DNA of 64,000 nucleotides from positions 94,283 through 158,282 of the forward strand of contig PMZJ01000041.1 in NCBI GenBank assembly GCA_003170415.1, read 5' to 3'. Within the stretch, counting starts at the first letter, position 1, and each line of letters opens with the position of its first letter. Shown here one piece after another: positions 36,031 to 55,066 of the stretch. Origin of the DNA: Phycisphaerales bacterium (GTDB lineage: Bacteria; Planctomycetota; Phycisphaerae; Sedimentisphaerales; Anaerobacaceae). Below the pieces are notes generated by a model. The model worked only from the letters and a program-made list of their open reading frames with translations, was not told the origin of the DNA and did not search any database. The translations under genes and the position numbers were made by a program.

Positions 36031-37563
36031 ATGGGATTTGATTTGAAGATATTTGGGGACGAGACTTTGGTTGAGTCGCTGGATGTGGAATATCTGGAAT
36101 GGTTGGTGGAGGAGCGGGCGGCGGAAGTACAGACGCATTTCGGGAAGATGTGGGAGTATTACACTAACCCGATAATGGATTTGCATCGGACGGGTACTCA
36201 TACAATCGGGCATAAGGCGGGTGAAAACGGCAAGTGCTATGTTCAGGCGCAGGAGTATGGATTGCCCGCAAGGATAACGGGGTTGGTGCGGTGCGCTGAG
36301 GCGGGGATGTTCGGTGGGAGGCCCGTCGGGGACATACGTCGCAAGGAGGTGGTGATTGAGAACGATATAGCATGGCGGGTAAACGCCGCGGTGGATTTTT
36401 TGTTTGGTAAACCAATAAGCGTGGTATCCCGGTCGCCTGATGGCGTGAAGCGAGCAGAAATCGAAGGGATAATAAAGGCGGTTTTTTCGGCCAACGGCGG
36501 GATCGGGTTTTTGCAGGATATGGCGGTGCTCGGGGGCGTCTATGGTTTCGTCGATTGTATGGTCAGGCCTGGCCGGGAAATCTACGAGCGCATTTCGGAC
36601 TCTCCTTCAAACCTCAGTTACGAGGTTGTGCTTGGATTAGCACGCGCAATCGGATTGGAGCTGATAGAGGCGCCCCGGGCACTGCCTGTTCTTGATGAGA
36701 ACGATTATCGAAAAGTGGTTTACTACGTTCAGCATTTTCAGCAGGCGAGGAATCAACTGGCTGGCGGCGGAGTATTGCAGCGGTTGTTTGGGCGAGAGGG
36801 GGACAGGCGGAAAGTGGTGAGCGTGACGGAGATAACATCGGCGGAGGCGTGGCAGAGGTATGAGGACGAGGAGCTTGTGGCGGAAGGCCGGTTGCCCTGG
36901 GGATTTTTGCCGGTGGTGCATATCCAGAATCTTGCGCAGCCATTTTACTACGAGGGGCAAAGCGACGTTGAGCCATTGATGCCGATACAGGACGAGCTGA
37001 ACACGCGATTGAGTGACAGGGCGAGCAGGATAACGATGCAGTCGTTCAAGATGTACCTGGGCAAGGGGATAGAGGGCTTCGCGGAGAAGCCAGTGTCGCC
37101 GGGGGTGATGTGGCATACGGATAACCCAGACGCGGCGATAGAGGAGTTCGGCGGCGATGAGGACCATCCGAGCGAGAGTGCGCACATAGAAGAGATTCGC
37201 GAGGCGATGGACAAAATCAGCGGGATGACGCCTTTGGTGGCGGGTGTGATTCGTACCAAACTGGGGAATCTGACGAGCGCGGTTGCGCTTAGGTTGACGA
37301 TGATGGGTATGCTGTCGAAAACGGAGCGCAAGAGATTTACGTACGGCGAGGGTTTGAAGAATATAGCGGGGATGGTTCTTGAGATTTTGGACAGGGCGAA
37401 CATCTACAAGACAAACGAGCGGGACAGAGACGTCGAGATAATTTTCCCTGACCCGCTGCCTGAGAATGAAATGGAGAAACTCGAGGAGGCCAAAGCGAAG
37501 AAGGAACTTGGCGTGCCGGTTGAGAGGGTGCTGAAAGAACTGGGTTACGAAACGGTTGTGTAG
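36031..37563 (+). CDS. Phage portal protein (SPP1 gp6-like)
   Basis: 510 residues. Portal proteins form the dodecameric vertex through which DNA enters the head. The pattern here fits the SPP1-type family: an N-terminal arm, a wing with LPARITGLVRCAEAGMFGGRPV and VDFLFGKPISV, the central PVVHIQNLAQPFYYEGQSDVEPLMPIQDELNTRLSD, then a long helix with KLGNLTSAVALRLTMMGMLSKTE and a C-terminal crown. AAGGGG lies before the ATG. It is the first gene of the collinear structural cassette. No terminase gene precedes it, which is unusual because the large terminase normally lies directly upstream. Confidence 0.82.
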   Translation: MGFDLKIFGDETLVESLDVEYLEWLVEERAAEVQTHFGKMWEYYTNPIMDLHRTGTHTIGHKAGENGKCYVQAQEYGLPARITGLVRCAEAGMFGGRPVGDIRRKEVVIENDIAWRVNAAVDFLFGKPISVVSRSPDGVKRAEIEGIIKAVFSANGGIGFLQDMAVLGGVYGFVDCMVRPGREIYERISDSPSNLSYEVVLGLARAIGLELIEAPRALPVLDENDYRKVVYYVQHFQQARNQLAGGGVLQRLFGREGDRRKVVSVTEITSAEAWQRYEDEELVAEGRLPWGFLPVVHIQNLAQPFYYEGQSDVEPLMPIQDELNTRLSDRASRITMQSFKMYLGKGIEGFAEKPVSPGVMWHTDNPDAAIEEFGGDEDHPSESAHIEEIREAMDKISGMTPLVAGVIRTKLGNLTSAVALRLTMMGMLSKTERKRFTYGEGLKNIAGMVLEILDRANIYKTNERDRDVEIIFPDPLPENEMEKLEEAKAKKELGVPVERVLKELGYETVV

Positions 37564-37649
37564 TTATTAAAAAGGCAGAAGCGAGAAGTTAAAAGGCAGA
37601 AGACGGACGAAGAAAAGTTTTGAGTTTTTAGTTAAGGAGAAAAGCAAAG

Positions 37650-38177
37650 ATGGACGCGATAGAGTCGCAAGAGAGTTTGTCAGAAGACAAAGTGGAACAG
37701 CAAGACCTGAACAATGCAAGGTTGGTTCCAATCGGTGAGTCGATACGGCATCGCAAGCGGGCACAGAGTGCCGAGAAGCGGGTTGAGGAGCTTGCGGGCG
37801 AATTGTCGGAGTCGCGTGCCGAGGCGACACAGCTTGCTGATGAGTTGAAGGGAGTGCAGAAGGACCAGGAGTTGACGAAGCGATTAGCCGCGGCCGGCGC
37901 GAGGGATTTGGAGGCGGCGGTGTTGATAGCCAAGTCGCGGTTAGGCCAAGGAGACAAAACAGACATTAGCAGCATTGTGGAGCAGTTGAAGAAGGAAAAG
38001 CAGTATTTGTTTAGCGAGGCAGTAGCCGGTGGGGCGAGCCCCGCCCTACGAACTTCGTCAGTCAAAGAGCAGAGAAGTGGAGCCGGAGCGATTGAGCGGG
38101 CGGCCAAGAGGGCCGCGGGAACGGGAAGCAGGAGTGATTTGCAGGAGTATATGAGAAGACGTAGGAGTGTTGTTTAA
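37650..38177 (+). CDS. Phage scaffold-like coiled-coil protein
   Basis: 175 residues, highly charged and mostly helical: KRAQSAEKRVEELAGELSESRAEATQLADELKG and a second helix to about residue 125. The C-terminal tail is basic (LQEYMRRRRSVV). Length, position between portal and major capsid genes, and composition fit a capsid scaffolding protein, which guides shell assembly and then leaves. The segment AVAGGASPALRTSS is encoded by a repeat (38022-38050) and probably is an insertion. The upstream 86 bp contains 'aaaggcagaagcgagaag' repeat words like those before the portal gene. Confidence 0.65.
   Translation: MDAIESQESLSEDKVEQQDLNNARLVPIGESIRHRKRAQSAEKRVEELAGELSESRAEATQLADELKGVQKDQELTKRLAAAGARDLEAAVLIAKSRLGQGDKTDISSIVEQLKKEKQYLFSEAVAGGASPALRTSSVKEQRSGAGAIERAAKRAAGTGSRSDLQEYMRRRRSVV
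38022..38050 (+). repeat. GGGGCGAGCCCC repeat inside the scaffold gene
   Basis: GGGGC-GA-GCCCC (38031-38042) sits in a longer word ending CGCCCTACG, whose complement is a common dispersed type (CGTAGGGCGGGGCTCGCCCC). It is read in frame as GGASPALR. Confidence 0.75.
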
Positions 38178-38267
38178 CTGTTGTTGAAATGAAATGTTCA
38201 TAGTTCGTTGTTCGTAGTTCATTGTAATGAACACGGGACACCGGGCAATTAGGAAGGAGACAAACAC

Positions 38268-39422
38268 ATGGCATTTACGGGAAAAGCGACATATTCGGCT
38301 GGGGCGACTTTGCCGGAGTTGACGGAAGATGTGGCGGATTTAGTCGGGATAGTATCGCCTTATGAGACACCATTGCTGGACGCATTAGGCGACCCATTGA
38401 GGGAGGCGACGAGCACGCATCATGAGTGGCTTGAGGATGAACTGCTGCCAAACAAGGACGCGGTGAACGACAGCACGTTTACCGACCCGGACGTGGATAC
38501 GCAGTTTGTGGTGGACAACGGCAGCAGGTTCAGGGCAGGCGACCAGATACAGATTGAGGGCAGCAGGGAGCTGATGTTAGTGAGTGGAGTGAGCACCAAC
38601 ACGCTGACGGTTATTCGCGGTTACGCGGGGACGATGGCGGAGAACCTTGCGGACAACCAGGCAATCAACATTCTGGGTAACGCAGCTTTGGAGGGCGATG
38701 ATAAGCCGGGCGTGAGGTTTACGAATCGCAGGCGGTGCGGGAACTACACACAGATATTTACAGCGACGGTTGAGGTTTCGGGGACGGATGTGGCGGCACG
38801 TCAGTTGGGTCTGGCGGATGAGATGGACTATCAAAAGCAGGAACGGCTGCGTGAGCTAATCAGAGATATGGAAAACACGGTTATCAACGGGGGTCAGCCG
38901 GCGAGCAGTCCGCAGGGCGGTGATATGGTCAGGCGGACGATGAAGGGGGTTGTGCAGCATCTTGCGACAAATGTGTTTCGCACAGGCGATAGTGGATTTC
39001 CGTCGGGAGCGGACCTTGATGAAGCGAAGATTAACTATGTGCTGAGAAAAATATGGGCCGGCAGCAACGGGAATATCGACCTGATAGTTGTGGGCGGTTT
39101 TCAGAAGCGGAAGATAAATAGTTTTGTGTCGGCGAGCAGAAGTTACGCGGCAGGGGACACGAAGTTTACCGACTTAGTGAACGTGTACGAGAGCGATTTC
39201 GGCGTTTGCCGGATAGTAACGACACGGTGGCTACCGCAGGACACGGTTCTGCTTTTGGATTCGTCGCGGATAGCGGTATTGCCTTTGGCGGGGCGTAGTT
39301 TTCACTTCAAGCCATTGGCGAGCGCAGGTGATTATGAGTGCGGCGAACTGATAGGCGAGTACACGATGGAACTGAAGAACGAGGCGGCACACGGGATTAT
39401 TCGAGGACTTAGCGTTAGTTAG
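38268..39422 (+). CDS. Major capsid protein (SU10/DUF5309-like)
   Basis: 384 residues. The sequence shows an N-terminal arm (GATLPELTEDVADLVGIVSPYETPLLDALG), a beta-rich E-loop-like segment with an inserted small domain (FVVDNGSRFRAGDQIQIEGSRE...TLTVIRGYAGT), the long helix AARQLGLADEMDYQKQERLRELIRDMENTVING, and a C-terminal A-domain with NIDLIVVGGFQKRKIN and DFGVCRIVTTRWLPQDTVLLLD. These are hallmarks of the SU10-type HK97-fold capsid family, by memory of that family. AAGGAG lies upstream. Together with the portal this is the best evidence for a virion-like particle. Confidence 0.85.
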   Translation: MAFTGKATYSAGATLPELTEDVADLVGIVSPYETPLLDALGDPLREATSTHHEWLEDELLPNKDAVNDSTFTDPDVDTQFVVDNGSRFRAGDQIQIEGSRELMLVSGVSTNTLTVIRGYAGTMAENLADNQAINILGNAALEGDDKPGVRFTNRRRCGNYTQIFTATVEVSGTDVAARQLGLADEMDYQKQERLRELIRDMENTVINGGQPASSPQGGDMVRRTMKGVVQHLATNVFRTGDSGFPSGADLDEAKINYVLRKIWAGSNGNIDLIVVGGFQKRKINSFVSASRSYAAGDTKFTDLVNVYESDFGVCRIVTTRWLPQDTVLLLDSSRIAVLPLAGRSFHFKPLASAGDYECGELIGEYTMELKNEAAHGIIRGLSVS

Positions 39423-39437
39423 TATTTGGCGGATATC

Positions 39438-39465
39438 GGGTAGTCCCGACAAATTGGGACTACCC
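39438..39465 (+). repeat. Strong hairpin after the capsid gene
   Basis: GGGTAGTCCC (39438-39447) pairs perfectly with GGGACTACCC (39456-39465) around an 8-nt loop. No T-run follows, so it is more likely a transcript-stabilising hairpin or a dispersed repeat than a terminator. Confidence 0.75.
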
Positions 39466-39490
39466 GGATCCGGCTTGAAGGGAGTGAAAT

Positions 39491-40147
39491 ATGGTCAGGT
39501 TATGCAATGATATTGATATTTTGAAGTATGAGCCGGCGTTGTTCGGGGAGTTTCATCCGGCGAATCAGGTTATGGCGGCGGGGACGGGAGGCAAGCTTGC
39601 GGGGACGACGTTCGAGGCGAGCGGTGCGGATTTTGTGTCAGCGGGGATTGAGGCGGGCGATTGTGTTTACCTGCGGTCGGCGGACGGGATTCTTGATGGG
39701 GCATACGAGATTGTGGCGGTGGATTCAGCGACGCAGTTGTGCGTATCGGTTTTGCGAGGAGATTCGGAGTCGGTTCCGATAGCTCCGCCATCTGGTAGTG
39801 GCATCACGTATCGGATAAGCACATTCAGGCCTCAGGTGGCGGAGGTGAGCTTGCGGCTGATGGAGTATTTGTGGATTCGGCCTGGGCAGGTAATAGGTGA
39901 TGTTTCGGTGGATGAGATTCTCGATTCGGATGAGGTTCGTCAGTTGTGCGCGATGGGGGTTACGGCGGCGGCATACAGAACGTTGGCAAGCGGGGCGGAT
40001 GGAGAGAATTTAAAGGTCAAATCGCAGGAATATGAGCAGATGTTCGGGAAAGGAATGGAGCGATGCAGGGTGGCAATAGACAAAGACGGTGACGGAGTCG
40101 CGGATTCGCTACGTTACGGCGGGTGCGGACGGCTGATACGAGATTGA
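39491..40147 (+). CDS. Putative head-tail connector protein
   Basis: 218 residues with no clear motif. The N-terminal part (about 1-110) looks like a small beta domain (AGDCVYLRSADGILDGAYEIVAVDSATQLCVSVLRG), also seen inserted in capsid or connector proteins. The C-terminal part is helical (VAEVSLRLMEYLWIRPG, VRQLCAMGVTAAAYRTLASG) as in head completion adaptors. Position directly after the capsid gene supports a connector role (inference from order). A near-consensus AAGGGAG ribosome site precedes the ATG. Confidence 0.5.
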   Translation: MVRLCNDIDILKYEPALFGEFHPANQVMAAGTGGKLAGTTFEASGADFVSAGIEAGDCVYLRSADGILDGAYEIVAVDSATQLCVSVLRGDSESVPIAPPSGSGITYRISTFRPQVAEVSLRLMEYLWIRPGQVIGDVSVDEILDSDEVRQLCAMGVTAAAYRTLASGADGENLKVKSQEYEQMFGKGMERCRVAIDKDGDGVADSLRYGGCGRLIRD

Positions 40148-40185
40148 TAACTGATTATTGATAATTGATTATTTTGGGCTTTCGT

Positions 40186-40554
40186 ATGGTTAATTTGGAT
40201 GGGATTAATTTGTTCGGCGAGGGGGAGTCGCAAATCGAGGTTGGCAGTTTTAGTCGAGAGAGCATTGAGAGGTCGGCGGCGGGGCTGGATGGTGTGGTGA
40301 GTATCAATTTGGGTGGACGCGGGCGGAAGATTCAGCAAAAGGGTGAGATTCGGGCGAGAAGCAAGGCGGACCTGGACAGCAAAGTTGGAGCGATATCGGC
40401 GTTTATAGATGGGGACACGCATACGCTGGTTGATTCGCAGGGGGAGACGTTTGAGAATCTGCGGGTGGATTCTGTGAACGTTAAAAACGAACGGGGAAGC
40501 GGGGCGGGTGTGGTTGCGGATTACGAAGTGGTTTATGCGCAGTTGATGGTGTGA
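40186..40554 (+). CDS. Putative small phage structural protein
   Basis: 122 residues from the ATG at 40186. The longer frame starts with TTG at 40165 inside an A+T-rich repeat. The sequence is beta-rich (GVVSINLGGRGRKIQQKGEIRARS, FENLRVDSVNVKNERG, DYEVVYAQL) and resembles small tail or neck proteins, but no family can be named. Its stop overlaps the next start as TGATG, so translation is coupled. Confidence 0.45.
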   Translation: MVNLDGINLFGEGESQIEVGSFSRESIERSAAGLDGVVSINLGGRGRKIQQKGEIRARSKADLDSKVGAISAFIDGDTHTLVDSQGETFENLRVDSVNVKNERGSGAGVVADYEVVYAQLMV

Positions 40555-41336
40555 TGATGGGACTTATTAGCAGCGGGATAAATGGCGTGAGGGTTTTTGA
40601 TTTGCCGACGGGCGTCTGGGAAGACGGGGTTGCAGTCGAGGCGCCAAGAGTTTGCTTAGTTAAGTGGCGGTCAGAGTGGAAGGACAAGTTCTATCAGGTT
40701 TATGTAAACGGATATTTCGCCGGTGTGACGGTTGACTGCGGGCAGAGGGAAATGGTGGTGCAGACGCCGAGTTGTTATGAGCGGGCGGCTAGAGTGGAGG
40801 TGTTTGCGGTTGAGGCGAGTGAGGCGGATGTTGATTTTAGTGATGGGCTGGAGCGAGGCGATGGGGACGGCGGGAGGGTGAGATTGAGTTTGCTGCGGAG
40901 TCAGCGTTTACCGGCGGGAGCGATGTTCGAGGTTTATTTTGACAATGGGACGGGGGTGGTTGACTACGAGCATCCGATAGGCGGAGGACAAGTTTGGGGA
41001 TGTTGGCAGGACAAGGCGGGGTTTGGATTGGCCAGGTTTGGGGAAGGCGATTTTGGTTATGAGTGGGCAGGCGGAGTCGGGTTTGGTATAGGCGGTTTTG
41101 GGCTGGATGAGTTTGGAGTTGACGCGGATGTTATCAAATGGGTAAGCCCGGCTCTGGGCGCGGGAGCATATCGGTTTGGGGTGAAGGTTATTGACGAGAG
41201 GGGCAATGAGAGTGTGGCGAGCGAGACGGGAGAGGTAGTTGTGATACCGGCGGCGAGGCCAGCAAGAGGATTGGACGTGCTGTCGTTTGAGGAAACGACG
41301 AATGCACTTGCACTTGAGGTTGAAGACGAAAAGTAA
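40554..41336 (+). CDS. Phage structural protein with Ig/Fn3-like domain
   Basis: 260 residues starting at the ATG that overlaps the previous stop. Another ATG follows directly. The N-terminus reads SSGINGVRVFDLPTGVW, then VYVNGYFAGVTVDCGQREMVVQ. A Gly/Phe-rich stretch (FGLARFGEGDFGYEWAGGVGFG) precedes a C-terminal Fn3-like segment (GAYRFGVKVIDERGNESVASETGEVVV). Such sandwich domains are common in tail tube and baseplate proteins. A related GNE(S/C) motif recurs in the gene at 43080, so the two may share an ancestor. Role inferred from context only. Confidence 0.45.
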   Translation: MMGLISSGINGVRVFDLPTGVWEDGVAVEAPRVCLVKWRSEWKDKFYQVYVNGYFAGVTVDCGQREMVVQTPSCYERAARVEVFAVEASEADVDFSDGLERGDGDGGRVRLSLLRSQRLPAGAMFEVYFDNGTGVVDYEHPIGGGQVWGCWQDKAGFGLARFGEGDFGYEWAGGVGFGIGGFGLDEFGVDADVIKWVSPALGAGAYRFGVKVIDERGNESVASETGEVVVIPAARPARGLDVLSFEETTNALALEVEDEK

Positions 41337-41348
41337 AGGAGCGGAATT

Positions 41349-41789
41349 ATGGCAGAGGTTTATCCGAGTGACAATGAGTTGTTGAATTTGCTGACGGATG
41401 ACGAAACCGGAGTGGAATACATAGCGACAGGGCAGGCGCCTTATTATTTGCAGTTTCGCAGGATGTTGTATCGGCTGTTGCAGGCGACGAGGCGGGCGAA
41501 TGATTTGCGGGTGTATGACGAGAGCGGGCTGGATATAGGTGTGAAGCCGGGGAAGTTCCAGGCGGGGACGCAGGAGGTGAATTACGCCGGTTCGTCGGGC
41601 AATGCTTTGGCGGATGACAAGGCGAATATCTACGTTTACCTGACGAACGCAGGGGTTCTGATAACGAACGAATACGGCGGTTTTCCTGATATGGCGACCA
41701 CGCCACACGTTCGATTGGCAAAAGCAACGACTTCGGGCGGGGATATAACGGCGATTGAGGATTGCAGGGTTTTGATGAGAGCTGGGTGA
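41349..41789 (+). CDS. Conserved-looking cassette protein, unknown
   Basis: 146 residues. The N-terminal half is helical (YYLQFRRMLYRLLQATRRANDLRV), the C-terminal half beta-rich (NIYVYLTNAGVLITNEYGGFPD...VRLAKATTSGGDITAIEDCRV). The C-terminal half looks like a phage fibre- or baseplate-type beta module. AAAGGAG precedes the start 12 bp after the previous gene. No family recognised. Confidence 0.45.
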   Translation: MAEVYPSDNELLNLLTDDETGVEYIATGQAPYYLQFRRMLYRLLQATRRANDLRVYDESGLDIGVKPGKFQAGTQEVNYAGSSGNALADDKANIYVYLTNAGVLITNEYGGFPDMATTPHVRLAKATTSGGDITAIEDCRVLMRAG

Positions 41790-41889
41790 CGAACAGAATC
41801 TCAGATTTAAGATTTGAGATTAAAGATTTCGGATTTCGGATTCCGCCACAGGCGGACAAGTTTAGCTTGCAGATTTAGAGGGATGAGAA

Positions 41890-43080
41890 ATGATTTACGT
41901 AAATGATTCGAGCAGGGTGTGGCATGTCGCGAAGGTTGGCAACGACGGCAACAGCGGGCACGCGGGACAATATCCGGTAAATCTGGCGAATGACGCCAAA
42001 TTGACGATAAGCGCGGCGGTAGCGGCGGCAAGTTCGGGTGATACGATTATTATCTGGCCCGGGACATACAGCGAACTTGTGGACGCGTCCGCCAAAGCGC
42101 TGAATATCATCGGGACACACAGGCAGTTGTGCAAGATTACGTATCCGAGCGGATACACGACGACACTGAAAATAGGCAGCCATTCCTCTTTGAAAAACAT
42201 CACCGTTGAGGCGGTAAATCCGAACAAGGTGGTAGAGGCGGCGAGCGGGGCGATAAATCTTTTGTTCGAGCGGTGCGATATCAACGGGGCATACGATGGC
42301 ATTTATCTGTCCGGGGTTTCTTTTGTTACTATCCGGGATTGTCGTCTTAAAGGAACTTACGACAGCAGCAACTTTTACGCAGCGACGCAATTTTTGTGTG
42401 AGCGGACTGTTTTTGAAACAGACGGGACTTACTCCGGTTCGGGAGATTACCGCGGGGTTCACGTTGGCCCCGGCGTATTTGTGTTCAGGGATTGCATCTT
42501 TATCGCGGCACAGCCAACGAGAACAGGTTCGCTTGGCGGTTTGGATTTGAACAGCGGGACAAGCACAAACTATACGCTGGTTACCTGTGAAAACTGCGTT
42601 ATGAGGGCCGACGGAGGCGCGACGAATGGGTATGTGTTCGGGGTTCGGGTGCAAAATTACGGCAGGTTGGTGTTGAAAAACTGCACGTTATTCACGCGGG
42701 CGACAACAGGGACGGCGACGGACATACGACAGACAGGTTCAGGGCAGGTAATCGTTAGTGCCTGTGCTTATAACCCGTCAACAGTTACCGGGACCATTAC
42801 CAACCAGGACTCGAACTGGGCGGCGGCGATGGCTGCGGCGTTATTCACAAACGGTGCGGCGAACAAGCTGAAAATAGACGCTGCGGGAAGGGTTGACGCG
42901 GGGAGCATAGAGGGGATTAACGCTGAATCGTTGCAGAAGGCGGCGAAGATGCTGCTGAACAAAGCAGTGCAGGACAAGCTGACGGGAGCGATTCGGTATT
43001 ACGACGATGACGGGCAGACGGTGATACTGACACATACGCCTGACGAGGGCGCGTCGAGTTTAACGAGGGCGGTGAGCTGA
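41890..43080 (+). CDS. Right-handed beta-helix protein, tail-spike-like
   Basis: 396 residues. After an N-terminal module starting VWHVAKVGNDGNSGHAG and DTIIIWPGTYSE (the usual cap of parallel beta-helix proteins), repeated strands follow: INLLFERCDINGAYDGIYL, FVTIRDCRLKGTYD, FVFRDCIFIAAQ, LVTCENCVMRADGG, LVLKNCTLFTRA. The C-terminal ~80 residues are helical (AESLQKAAKMLLNKAVQDKL) and resemble oligomerisation tails. In a virion cassette this fits a tail fibre or spike that binds or cuts surface glycans. It shares one nucleotide with the next gene. No catalytic residues could be identified. Confidence 0.65.
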   Translation: MIYVNDSSRVWHVAKVGNDGNSGHAGQYPVNLANDAKLTISAAVAAASSGDTIIIWPGTYSELVDASAKALNIIGTHRQLCKITYPSGYTTTLKIGSHSSLKNITVEAVNPNKVVEAASGAINLLFERCDINGAYDGIYLSGVSFVTIRDCRLKGTYDSSNFYAATQFLCERTVFETDGTYSGSGDYRGVHVGPGVFVFRDCIFIAAQPTRTGSLGGLDLNSGTSTNYTLVTCENCVMRADGGATNGYVFGVRVQNYGRLVLKNCTLFTRATTGTATDIRQTGSGQVIVSACAYNPSTVTGTITNQDSNWAAAMAAALFTNGAANKLKIDAAGRVDAGSIEGINAESLQKAAKMLLNKAVQDKLTGAIRYYDDDGQTVILTHTPDEGASSLTRAVS

Positions 43081-43769
43081 TGAGGCCTGCGTGGATGAGA
43101 GAAGCGTTGTTCGGGGGGCAGACGGCGAATGGTTTTAAGCTGGGGACAGTGACGACACAGGGCTGGTTCTGGATGAGGGTCGGCGGGTGTCGGATAGCAT
43201 ATCGCGGCGGGAGTATGGAGGGGGTTGATTTTGAGAATGTATTGACCATAGTGGAGCCGGATGCGGATGAGATAAGTTTGCCGAGTTACTTATCGCACGA
43301 GGCGGGCGAGGTTTATTTTTACGTTGTGCGGTGCGCGAACGGTTGCGGGGATATCGAGCAGACATTGCGGGCGGCGGTGAAGGTCGCGATTGATAACGAC
43401 GGCAGGCCGGGCAAGACGCGGCCGAATGAAATTGTCGGGCTAAGAGCGGAACAGGGACAGGATGGGAAGGTTGAGATTGTCTGGACATACAATCCAATGG
43501 AGCAGGGGAGCAGGCCTGCGGAGATGAGGATTTACGGGGACAATGGCACGGGCGGGATTGACTATCAAAATCCGGTTGCGGTAGTGAAATATAAAGGGCG
43601 GAGGTTTTACAGGCACAAGATTGAGATGGCGGAAAATGGGCGATATCGGTTTGCGGTGAGGGCGGCAGACGCGAATGGTAATGAGTGCGGGTCGAAACAA
43701 GAGGTTACGGTTGAGATTCGCGAGACGAATTTGGAAGCGATTCAAATAATTGGCGTCAGCGTAGATTGA
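43080..43769 (+). CDS. Putative tail protein with Fn3-like domain
   Basis: 229 residues. The start ATG shares one base with the previous stop (TGATG-type overlap). The N-terminal half reads LFGGQTANGFKLGTVTTQGWFWMRVGG. A Fn3-like domain follows (KVEIVWTYNPMEQGSRPAEMRIYGDNG...GRYRFAVRAADANGNECGSKQEVTVEI), similar in its last part to the protein at 40554. Likely a structural component of the tail tip (by context). Confidence 0.45.
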   Translation: MRPAWMREALFGGQTANGFKLGTVTTQGWFWMRVGGCRIAYRGGSMEGVDFENVLTIVEPDADEISLPSYLSHEAGEVYFYVVRCANGCGDIEQTLRAAVKVAIDNDGRPGKTRPNEIVGLRAEQGQDGKVEIVWTYNPMEQGSRPAEMRIYGDNGTGGIDYQNPVAVVKYKGRRFYRHKIEMAENGRYRFAVRAADANGNECGSKQEVTVEIRETNLEAIQIIGVSVD

Positions 43770-43807
43770 GATTGCTTCCTCGCAATGACAAATGAGGAAT
43801 AATAAAT

Positions 43808-44899
43808 ATGACGAACAGGGTGGATTTGTATCAGCCGGAGAGAAAAGTGACGGCGTTGCCAGCGGATGGGGCGTATGTGTTTGTAGAGGGAAGATTATGC
43901 CCGGAGCTGGAGGTTGTGGAGATAGTCAGAGGCGGGACGGGCGAGTTTAGTACAGCAAGGATGAGAAATAACTCAGATGGCGAGATTGAGATTGGCTCCT
44001 CGACTCTGCTCGTGACAGGAAAGCCCGTAGTAATCAAATGGTTTTATAACAATCTTTATCCGGCGGGCGGCGAGGAGGGGATAGTGATATTCGCCGGAGA
44101 GGTAGAGATTATTGAGACGGCGACTGGGCCGGATGGCGAGAGTACTCAAATCGCGGCGAGAGATTTCAGCTTGGCGCTTGAGAGGATAAATGTATCGGGA
44201 AAATGGGAACGAGGAGTTGACGGTCAGGTTGCATTTGCAGCGACAGCGAAGACGGTTTTTAACGAGAATGGTTTGCCAAACGCGACGGCTGAAATAGTAG
44301 AGCGTAACGGCAGCAGGATACGGGTGTTTGCGGCGGAGGGTGTTGAATCATGGTTGTGGGATTTTGCAGATATTATTGGATATTTGCTTTGTGAGTATTT
44401 GCCGGCGGGACAGTTGAGTATCCCGGAGGCGAGCAGGATAAGGGCGTTGACGGCGGGGGAGGCGATTGAGGACCTCAATGTTACGGGGAGGAGCTTCCTG
44501 GAGGCGATAAGCCAATGCTGCGAACAAGCGGGTGTTGGGTTTAAGTTTGTGCCGCGGTTGGGCGAGACGGGGCCGGAACAGGCGATTGTGTTTTATCGAA
44601 CGGGAATAGGCAGAACAGTTGAGCTGAATCTGCAAAAGCAAAGGGAGCGTTTGAGTATATCGAAGACGAATGTCTGGAAAGTCAATGCGTCGAGGAACGC
44701 TCAGGGCGATACGTTTGAAGTGCAGACGCCTTATTTGGCGATTGGCTTTGAGGTTGGGGACATCGCCAAAGCGAACCCGGACAGCAGGGATGTGTTATCG
44801 ACGAGGAACAACATAAACCCGGCGATAATTGAGCGGGTGAGGATGGATTTTCGTCAACAAACGACGCAATTAAAAATTGTCACAAGCAGGACATATTGA
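43808..44899 (+). CDS. Putative tail hub / baseplate protein
   Basis: 363 residues. A beta-rich N-terminal domain (about 20-125; ELEVVEIVRGGTGEFSTARM, FAGEVEIIETATGPDG) is followed by a helical-beta section with WDFADIIGYLLCEYLPAG, TGRSFLEAISQCCEQAGVGFKF. The pattern resembles gpD/gp27-type hub proteins, in which a DUF-type domain precedes an insertion domain, but similarity is by impression only. It is the last of the uninterrupted rightward structural genes. Confidence 0.45.
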   Translation: MTNRVDLYQPERKVTALPADGAYVFVEGRLCPELEVVEIVRGGTGEFSTARMRNNSDGEIEIGSSTLLVTGKPVVIKWFYNNLYPAGGEEGIVIFAGEVEIIETATGPDGESTQIAARDFSLALERINVSGKWERGVDGQVAFAATAKTVFNENGLPNATAEIVERNGSRIRVFAAEGVESWLWDFADIIGYLLCEYLPAGQLSIPEASRIRALTAGEAIEDLNVTGRSFLEAISQCCEQAGVGFKFVPRLGETGPEQAIVFYRTGIGRTVELNLQKQRERLSISKTNVWKVNASRNAQGDTFEVQTPYLAIGFEVGDIAKANPDSRDVLSTRNNINPAIIERVRMDFRQQTTQLKIVTSRTY

Positions 44900-48386: not shown

Positions 48387-48625
48387 AGGTCTCGCCGTTG
48401 GTTATTCCGACGGCGGACTTGAAATCGTTATTCCATTTTCAACACCGGTGGATTCTAAATCATAAATCATCAATTAGCAATTATCGAGATTTTGTGATGG
48501 AAGCGTAACTTTGATTGTAACTGCTTGTTAATGATATGGTTATGCGTTTTGTGGCTAAAATGGCGCTAAAGGCCGTTAAAATATGCTATAATGAAAATCA
48601 ACATAGTTTTTTGTGGGGTGTTGTG

Positions 48626-50119
48626 ATGAAACCGAATAAAGGTCTTTGCGTTATCTTCGGTTGGCTGATGGCGGGCCTTATGGCCGCGTCATTGGCCGAA
48701 GGCGGACAAACATTTATCAGCAACGCCGGCTTTGAAGTCAATACCTGGGGCACTGGCTTTGCCGATGAATGGTGGTCTTGGCCTCCAGACACCGTTGTTT
48801 ATCACAATCCCGAGCCGAACAAGGCGCATACAGGCAAGGAGTTTATCAGTATGACAGCAGGCCCCGATGGATGGGCGAACGCTGGGCCGACATCGTTCAT
48901 ACATGTCGCACGCGACACAAATTATGTAATCGCCGGATTCATTGCGGACACCAACGGTGGGCAAAGCGGACAAAACCTGTCCGGCACCGCGGTACTCAGA
49001 GTTGACTGGTATGCAAATCCCGGCGACTCATACGATTTGCGACTCGGCTCCGACTCCGTTTCTCCGGCTGTGCCGAAGGACGGCAATTATTATTACTACT
49101 CAGGCCAGATCCGTAACCACTATGACGCCAATTACGCCCAGATTATACTTGCGGCTAATCAAGTTGGTGGCCAGAGCCCTGTTTTTAGCTTCGATGATAT
49201 TACGTTCGCACTGGCGAACCCGCCGGCCAAACCGGATTTTAACGGCGACAGGACGGTCAACTTCATCGATTTCGCGCTGCTGGCCCAGGGATACAAAAAG
49301 GCCATTACTGCATACGATATGGATGGCGACGGCACTTTCGGCATTTCTGACCTTGCAATATTTACGCACGACTGGTTAAGGACAATCCCCGATATTCCCG
49401 GCTACCAGTTTGTCTGGTCCGATGAGTTCGACGGCGCCGAGCTCGACCGCACAAACTGGACCTACGACGTAGGCGATAGTTGGCCTAATGGCGAACTCGA
49501 GTCCTATACGGACAGGCCTGATAATTCGGTCGTCCAGAACGGTTGCCTTGTCATAATCGCAAAGCAGGAACAATATAACTCCAACAACTACACCTCGGCA
49601 CGTCTTCGCTCTCAGACCAAAGCCGACTTCCTCTACGGAAGAATGGCCGCTCGAATCAAACTGCCCGTGGGTCAGGGTATTTGGCCAGCGTTCTGGATGA
49701 TGCCCACCTGCTCAGTTTATGGCGGATGGCCCAGCAGCGGAGAAATTGACATTCTGGAAACAATTAACGCGGGTGACCGTGTCTATGGCACTATGCATTT
49801 TACTAATACACAGGGCCAGCACGCGTCATCCGGCGGTTCATACTACGCAAACGGCCTTTGTTTCGCGAACGATTTCCATGAGTACGCCATCGAATGGGAC
49901 CCCAACGAAATCCGATGGTATGTAGATGATGTTGAGTACTATTCCGAGACCAAATGGAGCAGCGGCACCAATCCGTATCCCGCTCCGTTCGACCAGCAAT
50001 TCTACTTCATCCTCAACGTCGCAATTGGAGGCGGCTGGGCAGGCCCGCCGGACCAAACAACCGTTTTCCCGCAGCAAATGCTTGTTGACTGGGTACGCGT
50101 TTATCAAAAGAACCCCTGA
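48626..50119 (+). CDS. Secreted GH16 endo-beta-1,3-glucanase-like enzyme with dockerin-like segment
   Basis: 497 residues from the ATG at 48626 (MKPNKGLCVIFGWL). The longer frame to 48536 has no leader. A signal peptide is followed by a carbohydrate-binding-like beta domain (about 28-198) and a dockerin-type Ca-binding pair (DFNGDRTVNFIDFALLAQGY and DMDGDGTFGISDLAIFTHDW, about 204-250). The GH16 domain (about 258-497) has the catalytic GEIDILE with Glu373, Asp375 and Glu378, plus WPAFWMMP and HEYAIEWDP. It likely hydrolyses laminarin or a similar beta-glucan. In Planctomycetota such dockerin-like segments are common and need not mean a cellulosome. It is a single gene with a weak GGGGTG ribosome site. 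Confidence 0.92.
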   Translation: MKPNKGLCVIFGWLMAGLMAASLAEGGQTFISNAGFEVNTWGTGFADEWWSWPPDTVVYHNPEPNKAHTGKEFISMTAGPDGWANAGPTSFIHVARDTNYVIAGFIADTNGGQSGQNLSGTAVLRVDWYANPGDSYDLRLGSDSVSPAVPKDGNYYYYSGQIRNHYDANYAQIILAANQVGGQSPVFSFDDITFALANPPAKPDFNGDRTVNFIDFALLAQGYKKAITAYDMDGDGTFGISDLAIFTHDWLRTIPDIPGYQFVWSDEFDGAELDRTNWTYDVGDSWPNGELESYTDRPDNSVVQNGCLVIIAKQEQYNSNNYTSARLRSQTKADFLYGRMAARIKLPVGQGIWPAFWMMPTCSVYGGWPSSGEIDILETINAGDRVYGTMHFTNTQGQHASSGGSYYANGLCFANDFHEYAIEWDPNEIRWYVDDVEYYSETKWSSGTNPYPAPFDQQFYFILNVAIGGGWAGPPDQTTVFPQQMLVDWVRVYQKNP

Positions 50120-50149: not shown

Positions 50150-50581
50150 TCAATGGCAGTTACCGCAGGAGTTGTTGCTGTCACACTGCTTCTTCGACTT
50201 GGCGGGCGAACCCGATTTCAGCCAGGTCATCGCTTCTTTCTTGTCGGAGAAGAGTAGGAGTTGAAGAGACACGAGAAACGCCACGTCCCTGAAAAATTTG
50301 ACCGCGTCGCTTATCGGCGAGACAGGGTCAAATACCATGGCTACCTTGTCCCGCGAAGTAACTCCAATTTGTTTGAGCATCCCGGGCATGTCATCAATCT
50401 GCAATATGGTAAGGCCGTGCACCAGTTTCCGATGGTCAACAATAAACCTGTGCGAGCCGTATTTTTGAGCCAGCGAGAATGCATCTTCGCACATTTTTTT
50501 ATTTTGGTCCCAGTTGGCCGGGCCTGCGGTCTTCATACATACGATATTGTCTTTTTCCAGGTGCTTAATCGTCCATTTCAT
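50150..50581 (-). CDS. STAS/SpoIIAA-like protein with Cys-rich tail
   Basis: 143 residues from the ATG at 50581 (MKWTIKHLEKDNIVCMKTAG). Longer frames begin at 50593 and 50641. The alternation of strands and helices, with FIVDHRKLVHGLTILQIDDMPGML and VAMVFDPVSPISDAVKFFRDVAF, resembles the SpoIIAA-like STAS family. The C-terminus ends ..QCDSNNSCGNCH, four Cys-type residues including a CxxCH motif at the very end. There is no signal peptide, so haem attachment is unlikely and metal binding is possible. It converges on the GH16 gene. Function unknown. Confidence 0.6.
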   Translation of the reverse strand: MKWTIKHLEKDNIVCMKTAGPANWDQNKKMCEDAFSLAQKYGSHRFIVDHRKLVHGLTILQIDDMPGMLKQIGVTSRDKVAMVFDPVSPISDAVKFFRDVAFLVSLQLLLFSDKKEAMTWLKSGSPAKSKKQCDSNNSCGNCH

Positions 50582-50674
50582 TGCCTGAGCCCCCATAACT
50601 ATTTCGCATCTGTAATATAAATTACTTTCCGCAATTGTCAATAGACGAATTTGGCGTGTCCTTTATCGCCTCTT

Positions 50675-50817
50675 GTGGAAAAATGCGGACAGCCGGCGGA
50701 TTACTCCGGCTCCTGTTTTTGCATCAGCTCGACTATCTCAGATTTGACGGGCATCGCGTCCACCGACCCGAATTTGGTGCAGGCCAGCGTGCCTGCCGCC
50801 GATGCGAAACTAACCGG
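50675..50817 (-). pseudogene. 3'-end fragment of a PfkB-family kinase gene
   Basis: This segment aligns with 53921-54059, the 3' end of the intact PfkB kinase gene, with roughly 85% identity by eye and the same TAA stop position (50701-50703). On the minus strand it would encode FASAAGTLACTKFGSVDAMP and the tail ending ELMQKQEPE. Upstream sequence diverges just beyond the alignment. The two copies enclose three PEP-CTERM genes. Confidence 0.85.
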
Positions 50818-51151
50818 CTATTTACTGATTGAAAAAGCGTTGAAATTAAATAAGGATTCTACCGCGTTTTTGAGCTAAAAACAGGCGTTCGTCCGAGAAA
50901 AGTAAACTTACTGTTCAAATTTTCATCTTGACATTCAGAATGGAGGTGGTTATCATATGGGGTGCTGATAGGTCTGTTCTATGGGCTTACAAGCGCGAAG
51001 AAGGGCTAAGAGCAAGAGAGAGTGATGAGAAGAAGGAAAGAAAGAGTCGGTTTTAGTATTTATAGTCAGAATGAGTATCCCTTTTATCTCTCGTAACATC
51101 GTCCCTAACATCTTGAAATTTATATTGTTTATTTTCCTGGAGGAGAAGAGT
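50818..51151. other. Leader region of the first PEP-CTERM gene
   Basis: About 330 bp. It holds the word GAGAGTGATGAGAAGAAGGA (51018-51037), which recurs in altered form at 51873-51892 before the next PEP-CTERM gene, and ends in GGAGGAGA before the ATG at 51152. No gene of its own. Promoters could not be placed firmly. Confidence 0.4.
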
Positions 51152-51820
51152 ATGAGAAAATTAGCAACAATTTGTGCAGTGGTAATTCTTGTTATGGCGA
51201 TGTCCGCTGGCGCGACAACCGTCAATTACGCAGTGTCCGGCTGGGGGGCAACGCAGTATCCCGGTCCTGTCACTCCGCCTGCGGGGGCCCCGCATAGTGT
51301 GGATGGTTGGGGCTATCCTGGTGATACGGTGGCACTCACAGGCAACTCAGGCAGCTTTGATCTTGTGGATGGCGCCTCATACACCCTAAAGATCAACACC
51401 TTGCAATGGGGCGTGGATTACACCTATAACGGCACTGCAACAGCTTGGGACTATCCAGATAACTGGCCCGATCTTACATTCGCAATTGACGCTACTCAGA
51501 GTATAACCATAGGTGCGGCGACGGGGAACATCAGCCAAGCTGGTACTTTGATATCCACTTGGAACGATGACTACCTCTCGTTTTCTGCCGGACCAATAGC
51601 TTCTCTCTACGTCCAGGGCTATCGAGTTGACATCACACCGCTCGCTCTTCCAGTTGCAAATGTTGATAACTTTAATGGTTACATAGATCCCTCCGAAGGG
51701 GGTTTTCCCCAGACTTCCCGAGACGTGATGGCGAGATTCGACGTCTCTGTTGTCCCCGAGCCGGCGACTATGGTTCTGCTTGGTCTCGGTGCGTTGGGTC
51801 TGCTGAAAAGACGCAGTTGA
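51152..51820 (+). CDS. PEP-CTERM exported protein
   Basis: 222 residues from the ATG at 51152 (GGAGGAG upstream). The frame extends to 51071 without a better start. Signal peptide MRKLATICAVVILVMAMSAGA, then a beta-rich domain with few charges (YTLKINTLQWGVDYTYNG, TLISTWNDDYLSFSAGP). The C-terminus has VVPEPATMVLLGLGALG plus LLKRRS, the exosortase sorting signal. First of three adjacent PEP-CTERM genes that share leaders and tails but not middle domains. Confidence 0.85.
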   Translation: MRKLATICAVVILVMAMSAGATTVNYAVSGWGATQYPGPVTPPAGAPHSVDGWGYPGDTVALTGNSGSFDLVDGASYTLKINTLQWGVDYTYNGTATAWDYPDNWPDLTFAIDATQSITIGAATGNISQAGTLISTWNDDYLSFSAGPIASLYVQGYRVDITPLALPVANVDNFNGYIDPSEGGFPQTSRDVMARFDVSVVPEPATMVLLGLGALGLLKRRS

Positions 51821-51899
51821 ATTAGAAAAAAAACCGCGAAGTTGTGTAATTTGCGAGAGTAAAAAAGAGGTTGAGAGTGATGAAAAGGAAGGAAAGAGA

Positions 51900-52916
51900 A
51901 TGAAAAAGTTGGTAACAATTTGTGCAGTACTAATGATTGCCTTGGCCGGTACGGCTCAGGCTCTTACCACAACCGATTGGACGGAGTATGCCTCGGATCC
52001 GGTCTATGCCCCCGGCAAGGCGTACTATCCGACTATCCTTAAAGAGGGAAATACCTACACGATGTGGTCTGATAGCGCTACCGGGGTTCAGAAGGCGACC
52101 TCCACGAATGGTGTCAATTGGACGACCGTCGGAAGCGTCACCGGGTTGCAAACCCCGGCGCACACGCTGGTGGAAAAAATAGGCAGCAGTTATCAGATGT
52201 GGTATTTCACAGGTTTGGGTTACAGCATCAACGACATCCGTACCGCTACCAGTACCGATGGTCTGACCTGGACCGGCGATAAGGCCATTACGCAGGTGGG
52301 AACGTCTGTCATCTACAACGATAACCAGAATTCAACCTGGAACCGTGGGTCCTACGGTCCCTCGGACGTGATATACAATCCCTCCGGCAGCGCAACCATT
52401 GTTAACCCGGTGGATGCGGCCAGCGTTTGGGCCAACAAGTTCGTGATGTATTACGATGGCACCTCCGGAGGAAAGGAATCGCTTGGATTGGCGGTTTCCA
52501 ACGACGGGGTCAACTGGGAGGGTTATAACGGAGGTATTTCACCGGTGTTCCAAGGAGCTGGTTCCGGATGGGACACAGACTATGCGACTCGAGCCACCAT
52601 CATCAAGGAAAACGACAACGCTTATGACATGTGGTACAGCGGGGGGACAGGAAAGATGTCGGACGGAATCGGGTACGCTTTTTCGACCGATGGGATTAAC
52701 TGGACTCGGGATGATTCGAACCCCATTTTCGACAAGAGCGACGGCGCCGCCTGGCGAAATGACCGGACTTACACTCCGATGGTCATCGGTGACGAGATGT
52801 GGTTCACTTGCAAGGACTTGGCAACGGGGAGCTATACAATCGGCTATGCCGTTCCCGAGCCGGCGACGATGTGTCTGCTTGGCCTTGGTACTTTTGCCCT
52901 GAGGCGAAAGAAGTAA
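51900..52916 (+). CDS. PEP-CTERM protein with beta-propeller-like glycosidase-type domain
   Basis: 338 residues. Signal peptide MKKLVTICAVLMIALAGTAQA. The middle shows repeats of the form YTMWSDSATGVQKATSTNGVNW, YQMWYFTG...IRTATSTDGLTW, FVMYYDG...LGLAVSNDGVNWE, YDMWYSGGTG...GYAFSTDGINW. These are the blades of a five-bladed propeller as in GH43/GH32/GH62-like and sialidase-like proteins. The catalytic acids could not be located. PEP-CTERM tail: VPEPATMCLLGLGTFALRRKK. AAGGAAGGAAAGAGA precedes the ATG. Probably a surface glycan-binding or hydrolysing protein. Confidence 0.82.
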   Translation: MKKLVTICAVLMIALAGTAQALTTTDWTEYASDPVYAPGKAYYPTILKEGNTYTMWSDSATGVQKATSTNGVNWTTVGSVTGLQTPAHTLVEKIGSSYQMWYFTGLGYSINDIRTATSTDGLTWTGDKAITQVGTSVIYNDNQNSTWNRGSYGPSDVIYNPSGSATIVNPVDAASVWANKFVMYYDGTSGGKESLGLAVSNDGVNWEGYNGGISPVFQGAGSGWDTDYATRATIIKENDNAYDMWYSGGTGKMSDGIGYAFSTDGINWTRDDSNPIFDKSDGAAWRNDRTYTPMVIGDEMWFTCKDLATGSYTIGYAVPEPATMCLLGLGTFALRRKK

Positions 52917-52940
52917 AAAAGTAGTGGAGAGAAAAACTCG

Positions 52941-52972
52941 GACATACAAGAAGAGAAGTATGTCGGATTATT
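52941..52972 (+). terminator. Weak terminator after the second PEP-CTERM gene
   Basis: GACATAC (52941-52947) pairs with GTATGTC (52958-52964), followed by GGATTATTTTT. The stem is short, so termination may be partial. Confidence 0.4.
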
Positions 52973-53057
52973 TTTCTCCTTGGACAAATCGTATGGGGCC
53001 GCTTTATGACCTAAGGTGGTCCCGTTATTTAATAACTTTAGAAAGAAGGAGAATAGG

Positions 53058-53789
53058 ATGAAAAAAATAATTACAACTTGTGCAGTATTTGGAATGATTT
53101 TGGCAGTCAGTGGTGTGGCACGGGCAACGACTGTAACTTGGAAAGGTCTCACGTGGACAATGTATGGCGCAAACACCACGGCCGTTGTGAACGGGAATGG
53201 CGGGTTGGACATCACCGTCCTTGGCGGTCAAAGTGGCGATCCAGTGCCTGACAACTGGGTATTGCAGAGCCTTCTGCCGGCCAACTTGACTCAGGCAAAC
53301 GCACCTTGGATTGAGTTCAAGATACAGGATACATATACCGGGAATGCAAGTGTCGGTGCGCCGCGCGGCTTTGTGGACACAGACATAAGCAGTTGGACAA
53401 CAGAGTCCATGTGGCAAGGGGGCGTTTTGGCCGGATATTCCACGTACTATCTTAACCACAACGTCTGGAAGGATACCGGCGGATGGGTGGCAAACGATTG
53501 GTACCAAGGCCCTGCGCGCACAGCCGGGGAGCACACTATCATGTTCGGGATGCACACAGACGGGACGGTCGATATGTGGTTTGACGGTGTGCTGGGACAA
53601 ACTATTGCCGCGAGTCCTGACTGCACCTTCTTTAAGCGGATGTACCTGGGGGTAGACGCCCCTTCAGGCACAACGTTTACGGGAACCTACAACGACCTCC
53701 AGTGGGGTACAGGCTACGTTCCAGAACCTGCAACGCTTTGTCTGCTTGGTCTTGGTGCGTTGGGTCTGTTGAGGAAACGCAGAGCGTAA
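53058..53789 (+). CDS. PEP-CTERM protein with concanavalin-like domain
   Basis: 243 residues from the ATG at 53058 with GGAG 9 nt upstream. The open frame to 53016 is longer. Signal peptide MKKIITTCAVFGMILAVSGVARA. The middle has lectin/laminin-G-like beta sandwich features (WIEFKIQDTYTGNASVGAPRG, HTIMFGMHTDGTVDMWFDGVL, KRMYLGVDAPSG). C-terminus YVPEPATLCLLGLGALGLLRKRRA. Third of the tandem PEP-CTERM genes, followed by a strong terminator. The domain may bind surface polysaccharide. Confidence 0.82.
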   Translation: MKKIITTCAVFGMILAVSGVARATTVTWKGLTWTMYGANTTAVVNGNGGLDITVLGGQSGDPVPDNWVLQSLLPANLTQANAPWIEFKIQDTYTGNASVGAPRGFVDTDISSWTTESMWQGGVLAGYSTYYLNHNVWKDTGGWVANDWYQGPARTAGEHTIMFGMHTDGTVDMWFDGVLGQTIAASPDCTFFKRMYLGVDAPSGTTFTGTYNDLQWGTGYVPEPATLCLLGLGALGLLRKRRA

Positions 53790-53824
53790 AAAGTTCGAAA
53801 AGACAATCTGTTTTATAAAACAGA

Positions 53825-53853
53825 GGGCTGTGTTTAAACAACACAGCCCTTTT
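53825..53853 (+). terminator. Rho-independent terminator of the PEP-CTERM group
   Basis: GGGCTGTGTT (53825-53834) and AACACAGCCC (53840-53849) form a 10-bp stem with a 5-nt loop, followed by TTTTC. It lies 36 bp after the last PEP-CTERM gene. Confidence 0.9.
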
Positions 53854-53947
53854 CTATTCAGGATTTTAGCTGATATTAAGCCCATTTTGTAATTTTGGTA
53901 AGGCGGCATCTTTGATTTTTGCGGGGAAAACGCGGACAGTCGCCGGA

Positions 53948-54910
53948 TTACTCCGGCTCCTGCTTTTGCATCAGTTCGATTATCTCGGATTTAACTGGCA
54001 TTGCGTCCACCGAGCCGAATTTGGTGCAGGCAAGCGCGCCCGCCGCCGATGCGAATCTGACGGCCTTCCGCAAATCGTCGCCTACCGCCAGCGACGCCGC
54101 CAGTGCGCCGGCAAAGGCGTCTCCCGTGCCCGTGTGGTCAACCAGCTCGATTGGATAGGCCGGGATATGGTCGGCGTTGTCCCTGTCAACAACCATACAG
54201 CCGCGTCTGCCCATTGTTATCACCGCGGCAGCCGCGCCTCGGGCGACAAGGTCCGAGCCGACCATTTTTGCCGTGCGTATATTCGCGCTGGAATGCTCGC
54301 TAATCAGCGATGCCTCGTAAAGGTTCGGTATCATCACATCGACCGAGAAGTATTCCGCGGGCAGCGACGTTTCGACTCCCGGGCTTGAAGGTCCCAGCAC
54401 GCCCGCCGGGTCAAGGATGACTTTTTTGCCGTGCAGCTTGGCGATTGAGATTGCCTTGACCACCGCCTCTTTGGGCAGCCGTGCGTGAATCAGGCATACG
54501 TCCGCTTCGGCTATCGCACGCTCCGCCAGTTCGATATCCTGTGGCACAAGCGCGCTGTTTGCCCCATCGTATCGAACGCAGGTGTTTTCGCCTTTGGTAT
54601 CCACCAGCGTCAGGATAACGCCGGTGCTTTTTGCCTGCGCGGTGAAGACGTATTTAGTGTTTACGTCGTATTGTTCTAATATGGCTTTTATCGTCGCGCC
54701 CAGCGGGCAATTGCTGATTTTGCTGACTAAATGCACCTCGCAGCCGCACAGTGCCGCTTCGATGGCCTGATTGACTCCCGGCCCCGTCGCCGTCAGCGAT
54801 AGCGCCGTGCCTGTCGTCGTCCGGCCTGCCGTCGGCGTCTCTGCGCATTTTATCGCGAGGTCGACGTATGCGCTGCCGACAACGACTACAGTAGGATTCC
54901 TTTCCGACAT
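53948..54910 (-). CDS. PfkB-family carbohydrate kinase (ribokinase-like)
   Basis: 320 residues from the ATG at 54910. The ATG at 54916 lies too close to GAGGA, while 54910 has a 6-7 nt gap. Motifs are VVVVGSAYVDLAIKC near the N-terminus, GPGVNQAIEAALCG, and the PfkB signature DHTGTGDAFAGALAASLAVG with catalytic Asp. The family phosphorylates sugars or nucleosides. The substrate cannot be read here, although ribokinase-like or fructose-type substrates are likeliest. Its 3' end is duplicated as a fragment at 50675-50817 on the far side of the PEP-CTERM genes. It converges on them and is divergent from the uronate operon. Confidence 0.9.
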   Translation of the reverse strand: MSERNPTVVVVGSAYVDLAIKCAETPTAGRTTTGTALSLTATGPGVNQAIEAALCGCEVHLVSKISNCPLGATIKAILEQYDVNTKYVFTAQAKSTGVILTLVDTKGENTCVRYDGANSALVPQDIELAERAIAEADVCLIHARLPKEAVVKAISIAKLHGKKVILDPAGVLGPSSPGVETSLPAEYFSVDVMIPNLYEASLISEHSSANIRTAKMVGSDLVARGAAAAVITMGRRGCMVVDRDNADHIPAYPIELVDHTGTGDAFAGALAASLAVGDDLRKAVRFASAAGALACTKFGSVDAMPVKSEIIELMQKQEPE

Positions 54911-55008
54911 AGCCATTCCTCAAAATATACCTTACAATGCGTGAGTATATTCTTCCCGCCCTCGTTTGCAACCATTTTTATTAATGTCGGCGAAATACGG
55001 AAATTGAC

Positions 55009-55066
55009 TGGGCCCGGAAGGGTTCGAACCTTCGACCAATGGATTATGAGTCCGATCCTCTGGTTG
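55009..55066 (-). pseudogene. 5'-truncated tRNA-Met-like remnant (CAT)
   Basis: Read on the minus strand: AACCAGAGGATCGGACTCATA..., an anticodon loop with CAT, then GGTCG-AAGGTTCGAACCCTT and the 3' acceptor arm CCGGGCCCA. The T arm AAGG(G)TTCGAACCCTT is intact. The matching 5' acceptor strand (GGGCCCG) and D arm are not found in the next 100 nt, so about 18-20 nt of the 5' side are missing. It resembles the 3' end of a tRNA-Met left at an integration site. CCA is not encoded. Confidence 0.75.

Follow-up and report, generated by a model that had tools for sequence, protein, structure and literature searches.

How three PEP-CTERM genes came to lie between an intact PfkB-family kinase gene and a detached copy of that gene's 3' end is the question raised by this locus of a Phycisphaerales bacterium. 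We analyzed it within a stretch of 64,000 nt (the window, to which all coordinates without a prefix refer) and compared it with related genomes. The preliminary description had attributed the arrangement to a duplication or insertion that created or delivered the PEP-CTERM genes and left a duplicated kinase end as a target scar.

The repeated kinase end and the empty site in relatives

The two kinase ends, 50677-50819 and 53924-54066, form an ungapped repeat of 143 nt in the same orientation, with 87% identity. BLASTN aligns 138 nt of the pair at 87.7% with E = 2e-44, which excludes chance. The left copy (50677-50819, minus strand) comprises the last ~36-38 codons of the kinase, its stop codon and 24 nt past the stop. 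Since only five of the first nine nucleotides of this fragment match, the breakpoint is placed near 50808-50817. The kinase end occurs only twice in the genome assembly (G000; 2.67 Mb, 43 contigs), with no further copy elsewhere in it. The repeat reported in the preliminary description is thus real, and so is its other observation, that only PEP-CTERM genes lie between the copies: we found three, and no other convincing gene.

The right copy belongs to an intact, ribokinase-like kinase gene of the PfkB family (53948-54916, minus strand; 53924-54916 with the 24 nt of 3' flank common to the fragment). The protein contains a full-length PfkB domain (PF00294, residues 9-307, E = 4e-52), and its match to the ribokinase model TIGR02152 is below that model's cut-off. 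The records closest to the window are Phycisphaerales metagenome-assembled genomes (MAGs); in the congener G001, the kinase protein is 95% identical to that of the window, and the feature as a whole is at 91%.

In G001 the 3' end of the kinase runs straight into the sequence that flanks the fragment in the window. By BLAST, 50639-50814 corresponds to L033:1434-1261 at 90%, through the stop codon and ~60 nt of non-coding DNA, after which SpoIIAA-like genes follow. In G003, too, the kinase is followed by SpoIIAA-like genes, and no PEP-CTERM gene separates them. The window has a SpoIIAA-like (STAS-type) gene at 50150-50641 (minus strand), with 40-47% identity in tblastn to the neighbours of the kinase in both relatives (L033, L034), of which it appears to be the native downstream counterpart; its match to PF11964 (E = 0.007) is below the cut-off. 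The 3' flank of the fragment (50639-50676, minus strand) is identical at 31 of 37 positions to the region right after the G001 kinase, while the flank of the intact kinase is identical at only 10 of 38 over the same stretch. In other words, the intact kinase has only the first 24 nt of the flank that follows the G001 kinase; over the subsequent 38 nt its identity is 26%, compared with 84% for the fragment.

From these alignments, the fragment appears to stand at its native position, next to its own flank. Because G001 and G003 have the kinase without PEP-CTERM genes, the segment 50820-53923 is best read as a derived insertion in this genome. The unbroken kinase locus that the preliminary description proposed to look for therefore exists in G001, and G003 likewise lacks the array. 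Of its two-part explanation, the insertion is upheld by these empty sites; the duplicated target scar fares differently, as the divergence of the copies indicates.

Divergence of the two kinase ends

The 15 coding differences between fragment and intact gene fall 3, 0 and 12 at codon positions 1, 2 and 3 (P = 3e-4 versus a uniform distribution). When the changes were polarised with G001, G003 and G002, six were assigned to the intact copy, all at third positions, and nine to the fragment (three first, six third position); four of these nine are in its first 9 nt and may be outside the true breakpoint. The copies have no derived change in common against G001: in both columns where the pair differs from G001, it is G001 that has changed. 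The synonymous distance (dS) is 0.59 between fragment and intact gene, 0.26 between fragment and G001, and 0.30 between intact gene and G001, the last computed on the whole gene. Because of the third-position bias, of a dS of 0.59 that is no smaller than the distance of 0.30 between the two genomes, and of the absence of any uniting derived site, we interpret the fragment as the probable tail of a separately diverged kinase allele, and not as a copy of the present kinase.

These data bear directly on the model of the preliminary description, a duplication within the lineage, in which a 3.1-kb segment inserted at the kinase end, 143 nt of target were duplicated and the left copy decayed as a non-coding scar. 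The geometry fits this model, with direct repeats flanking an insert and an unbroken empty site in G001. Topology alone is also compatible with it: the maximum likelihood tree of the kinase ends is nearly a trichotomy, and pairing the fragment with the intact gene gives AU p = 0.17-0.26, on an overlap of only 108-117 coding nt. Against it, most differences are at third codon positions, the copies have no stem change in common, and the fragment carries fewer changes than a neutral copy should have at the age implied by the synonymous divergence of the intact gene (P = 0.001-0.02). A simple Poisson likelihood comparison, which is rough and based on ~110 nt, favours separate alleles: their likelihood exceeds that of a neutral in-lineage copy 10-fold when all sites are used and 80-fold when the edge is trimmed. 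We thus consider an in-lineage duplication unlikely: the copies differ as two functional alleles do, with a synonymous distance at least as large as that between species.

Constrained divergence would also be accounted for if the fragment were the truncated remnant of an old tandem paralogue of the kinase, with the array inserted between the paralogues. Against this, a single close kinase is present in all congeners, and in the other family members where one was found, and the fragment is flanked by the sequence that follows the single-copy kinase of G001. An old paralogue is, in our view, unlikely. The preliminary description had stated that its model would fall if the fragment came from an independent, separately diverged paralogue; the separate divergence is largely borne out, except that the data point to an allele of this locus more than to a paralogue.

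The two alleles are about equally far from G001. Distance to G001 was discarded as a means of telling the native from the foreign allele, since dS varies from 0.14 to 0.65 among other genes compared between the two genomes. Along the intact kinase, third-position difference from G001 rises from 4.6% in the first 261 nt to 24% in the rest (permutation p = 0.0035), whereas divergence from G003 is flat along the gene. This patchiness may reflect recombination inside the gene, but the signal is only suggestive because two of three control genes were uneven as well (p = 0.01 and 0.04).

Gene content and edges of the insert

The three genes of the array are all on the plus strand. The first (51152-51820) encodes 222 aa, with no congener orthologue beyond the tail; the second (51900-52916) encodes 338 aa with weak similarity to propellers of the glycosidase/phosphorylase type (NF052550, E = 9e-5, far below cut-off); the third (53058-53789) encodes 243 aa and is convergent with the kinase. 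All three proteins score over the cut-off of PF07589 (E = 4e-7, 5e-6 and 2.5e-7, respectively) and have the C-terminal PEP motif, hydrophobic stretch and basic end of exosortase substrates. PEP-CTERM matches number 34 in the genome, which also has two exosortase genes (PF09721; G000:C6, E = 2e-58, and G000:C26, E = 7e-58). Across 24 relatives, no orthologues of the three array genes were found beyond the sorting tail of ~25-40 residues.

At its two outer ends (51014-51175 and 53731-53857), the array matches the ends of one PEP-CTERM gene elsewhere at 75-79%, with different middles. That gene is at a vertically inherited locus (G000:C32:20798-20019 and G001:C74:12909-13687). The right-hand match includes a 3' UTR with a terminator hairpin (AGGGCTGTG...CACAGCCCTTTT; 53787-53857, plus strand), common to the gene at both copies of that locus (82-83% over 72 nt). 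A recent origin of the array by copying of this genome's C32 gene was rejected, because the window copy is as distant from C32 (75%) as from the G001 orthologue of that gene (77%). A tandem set of four genes on another contig (G000:C41, L127:2829-5491) has VPxPGA-type C-terminal tails 81-87% alike in DNA and unrelated middles, a second case of conserved ends with variable centres.

Between the array and the kinase ends lie a left spacer (50820-51013), on the side of the presumed illegitimate junction, and a right spacer (53858-53923); neither has a relative in 161 genomes of the order or in the loci compared. No mobility gene and no terminal inverted repeat was found in the insert, which, together with repeats diverged as coding alleles, does not match a transposon or integrase insertion with target duplication and again counts against the in-lineage model.

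The preliminary description had also suggested looking for kinase-end repeats at other PEP-CTERM arrays; there are none in this genome, and no comparable duplicated ends of neighbour genes surround the other PEP-CTERM loci examined in it. The only repeats at those loci were short unassigned ones and those that occur within, or are common to, PEP-CTERM, dockerin or other repeat proteins. In G021, from another genus, the orthologous kinase also has a convergent PEP-CTERM gene on one side and a different PEP-CTERM gene on the other (L038:9664-11559). As a related event this convergent gene was dismissed as coincidence, only the sorting tail being alike.

A conserved leader upstream of PEP-CTERM genes

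The array is preceded by a conserved non-coding leader of ~110 nt (51012-51118, plus strand), a candidate structured RNA. The same leader precedes PEP-CTERM genes in G000:C32, in G001:C74 and in G076, where two loci have it and a third has part of it. It also precedes PEP-CTERM genes in other families of the order (G035:C6, family f2, and G116:C18, family f7). Though non-coding, it is 77-89% identical in the best-matching stretches, across three families of the order. Copies are at L101:10194-10301 (minus strand), L102:9407-9514, L135:3803-3911, L137:3709-3816, L138:3968-4074 (minus) and L139:3016-3123 (minus). In this genome it was seen at 2 of the 34 PEP-CTERM genes, counted on the subset of the 34 loci that was fetched.

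The predicted fold has 33 pairs, with 94.8% of cells paired and five double changes, and pairing falls to 44-54% when the partners are slid; the fold was derived from the same alignment on which it was scored, which favours it. Single-sequence z-scores range from +0.4 (the window) to -3.5, and Rfam gave no meaningful match. We propose the leader as a candidate regulatory RNA or operator-bearing leader, which would offer a handle on the regulation of exosortase substrates in this group. A wider reading, which we regard as improbable, is that the array is a transferable unit bounded by the structured leader and the conserved terminator. On this view, PEP-CTERM genes with the leader would spread among lineages and families of the order, settle next to ordinary genes through recombination in the ends of those genes, and be expressed from the same leader in every new location.

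Surrounding region

Upstream of the kinase is the 3' half of a tRNA-Met gene (55006-55061, minus strand), a probable integration-site remnant; G003 has an intact tRNA here (L034:14643-14714). A second tRNA-Met 3' half is ~35 kb away on the same contig (G000:C16:184079-184151), and the start of the G001 contig (L033:146-313) is an element end 96% identical to one at 184 kb of C16. The arrangement suggests a hotspot at which elements that use tRNA-Met integrate. A prophage-like block at 36031-44899, with long ORFs that by eye resemble phage structural proteins, is missing from the syntenic region of G001 and G003. A secreted GH16 glycosidase carrying a type I dockerin domain (48536-50119) adjoins the locus.

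Proposed origin

On balance we think it likely that DNA of a related lineage, comprising a kinase 3' part and the array, recombined at the kinase, was joined illegitimately at its other end and displaced the resident 3' end. The ancestral locus would have had the kinase followed by SpoIIAA-like genes, as G001 and G003 do. The incoming DNA would have brought that lineage's kinase 3' part, followed by the PEP-CTERM array. Homology would have aligned one end of this DNA with the resident kinase, and its other end would have been joined without homology within the final codons of that gene. The product would be a complete kinase with the incoming 3' part, a new array, and the resident tail moved 3.2 kb away together with its native flank. 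At the borders, the kinase and the 3' flank align to the unbroken G001 locus, and the empty-site genomes contain no relative of the sequence right of 50820. No donor genome with the kinase and this array was found in the 161 genomes of the order. The repeat, the empty site, the separate divergence of the kinase ends and the lack of the array in congeners are shown directly, whereas the choice of the native allele, a single event and recombination as its mechanism are inferred.

The same geometry could arise if the assembly had joined two strains, with the left of the junction from one and the right from the other. The window behaves as a MAG contig (43 contigs, 95% complete) and its close records are MAGs; moreover, the fragment diverges as another strain or species would and is in its native position relative to the left flank. 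Nevertheless, the window has no run of Ns, no repeat was seen that the array side has in common with the right edge of the fragment and that could bridge a false join near 50820, and contamination is 1.4%. Assemblers rarely merge alleles 13% apart. We consider a strain chimera unlikely.

The most likely cause, displacement of an allele by recombination, is a type of event already described, here at a new location. It would provide a route for surface-protein genes into a planctomycete genome, through recombination anchored in a neighbouring conserved gene, with the old gene end left behind as a datable footprint. Such displaced ends could be searched for as a sign of genes acquired without a mobile element.

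Comparison with known systems

Homology-facilitated illegitimate recombination is known experimentally from conjugation in E. coli (PMC3240628), and has also been described in naturally competent species. As in its products, one end here appears anchored by homology and the other joined without it, with non-homologous genes gained beside the anchor; unlike those products, the event is deduced here from one assembled genome alone. By analogy, a whole kinase, new genes and an old tail in the same orientation would be the geometry expected from one-sided homologous integration. The same logic has been proposed for the arrays of the Vibrio type VI secretion system (T6SS) and for Rhs loci, where incoming effector modules displace old 3' ends (PMC5361080). 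Our locus resembles these effector-immunity arrays and Rhs loci in having a conserved gene part followed by new DNA, with the older 3' end shifted downstream in the same orientation. In contrast to them, it carries neither toxin nor immunity genes; a housekeeping-type kinase serves as the anchor, PEP-CTERM genes make up the cargo, and there is one displacement and no series. With respect to the PEP-CTERM/exosortase sorting system (PMC1569441), the three proteins with the C-terminal motif and the two exosortase genes of the genome conform to it; the sorting signal is ordinary, and the interest lies in the arrival of the genes and in their common leader.
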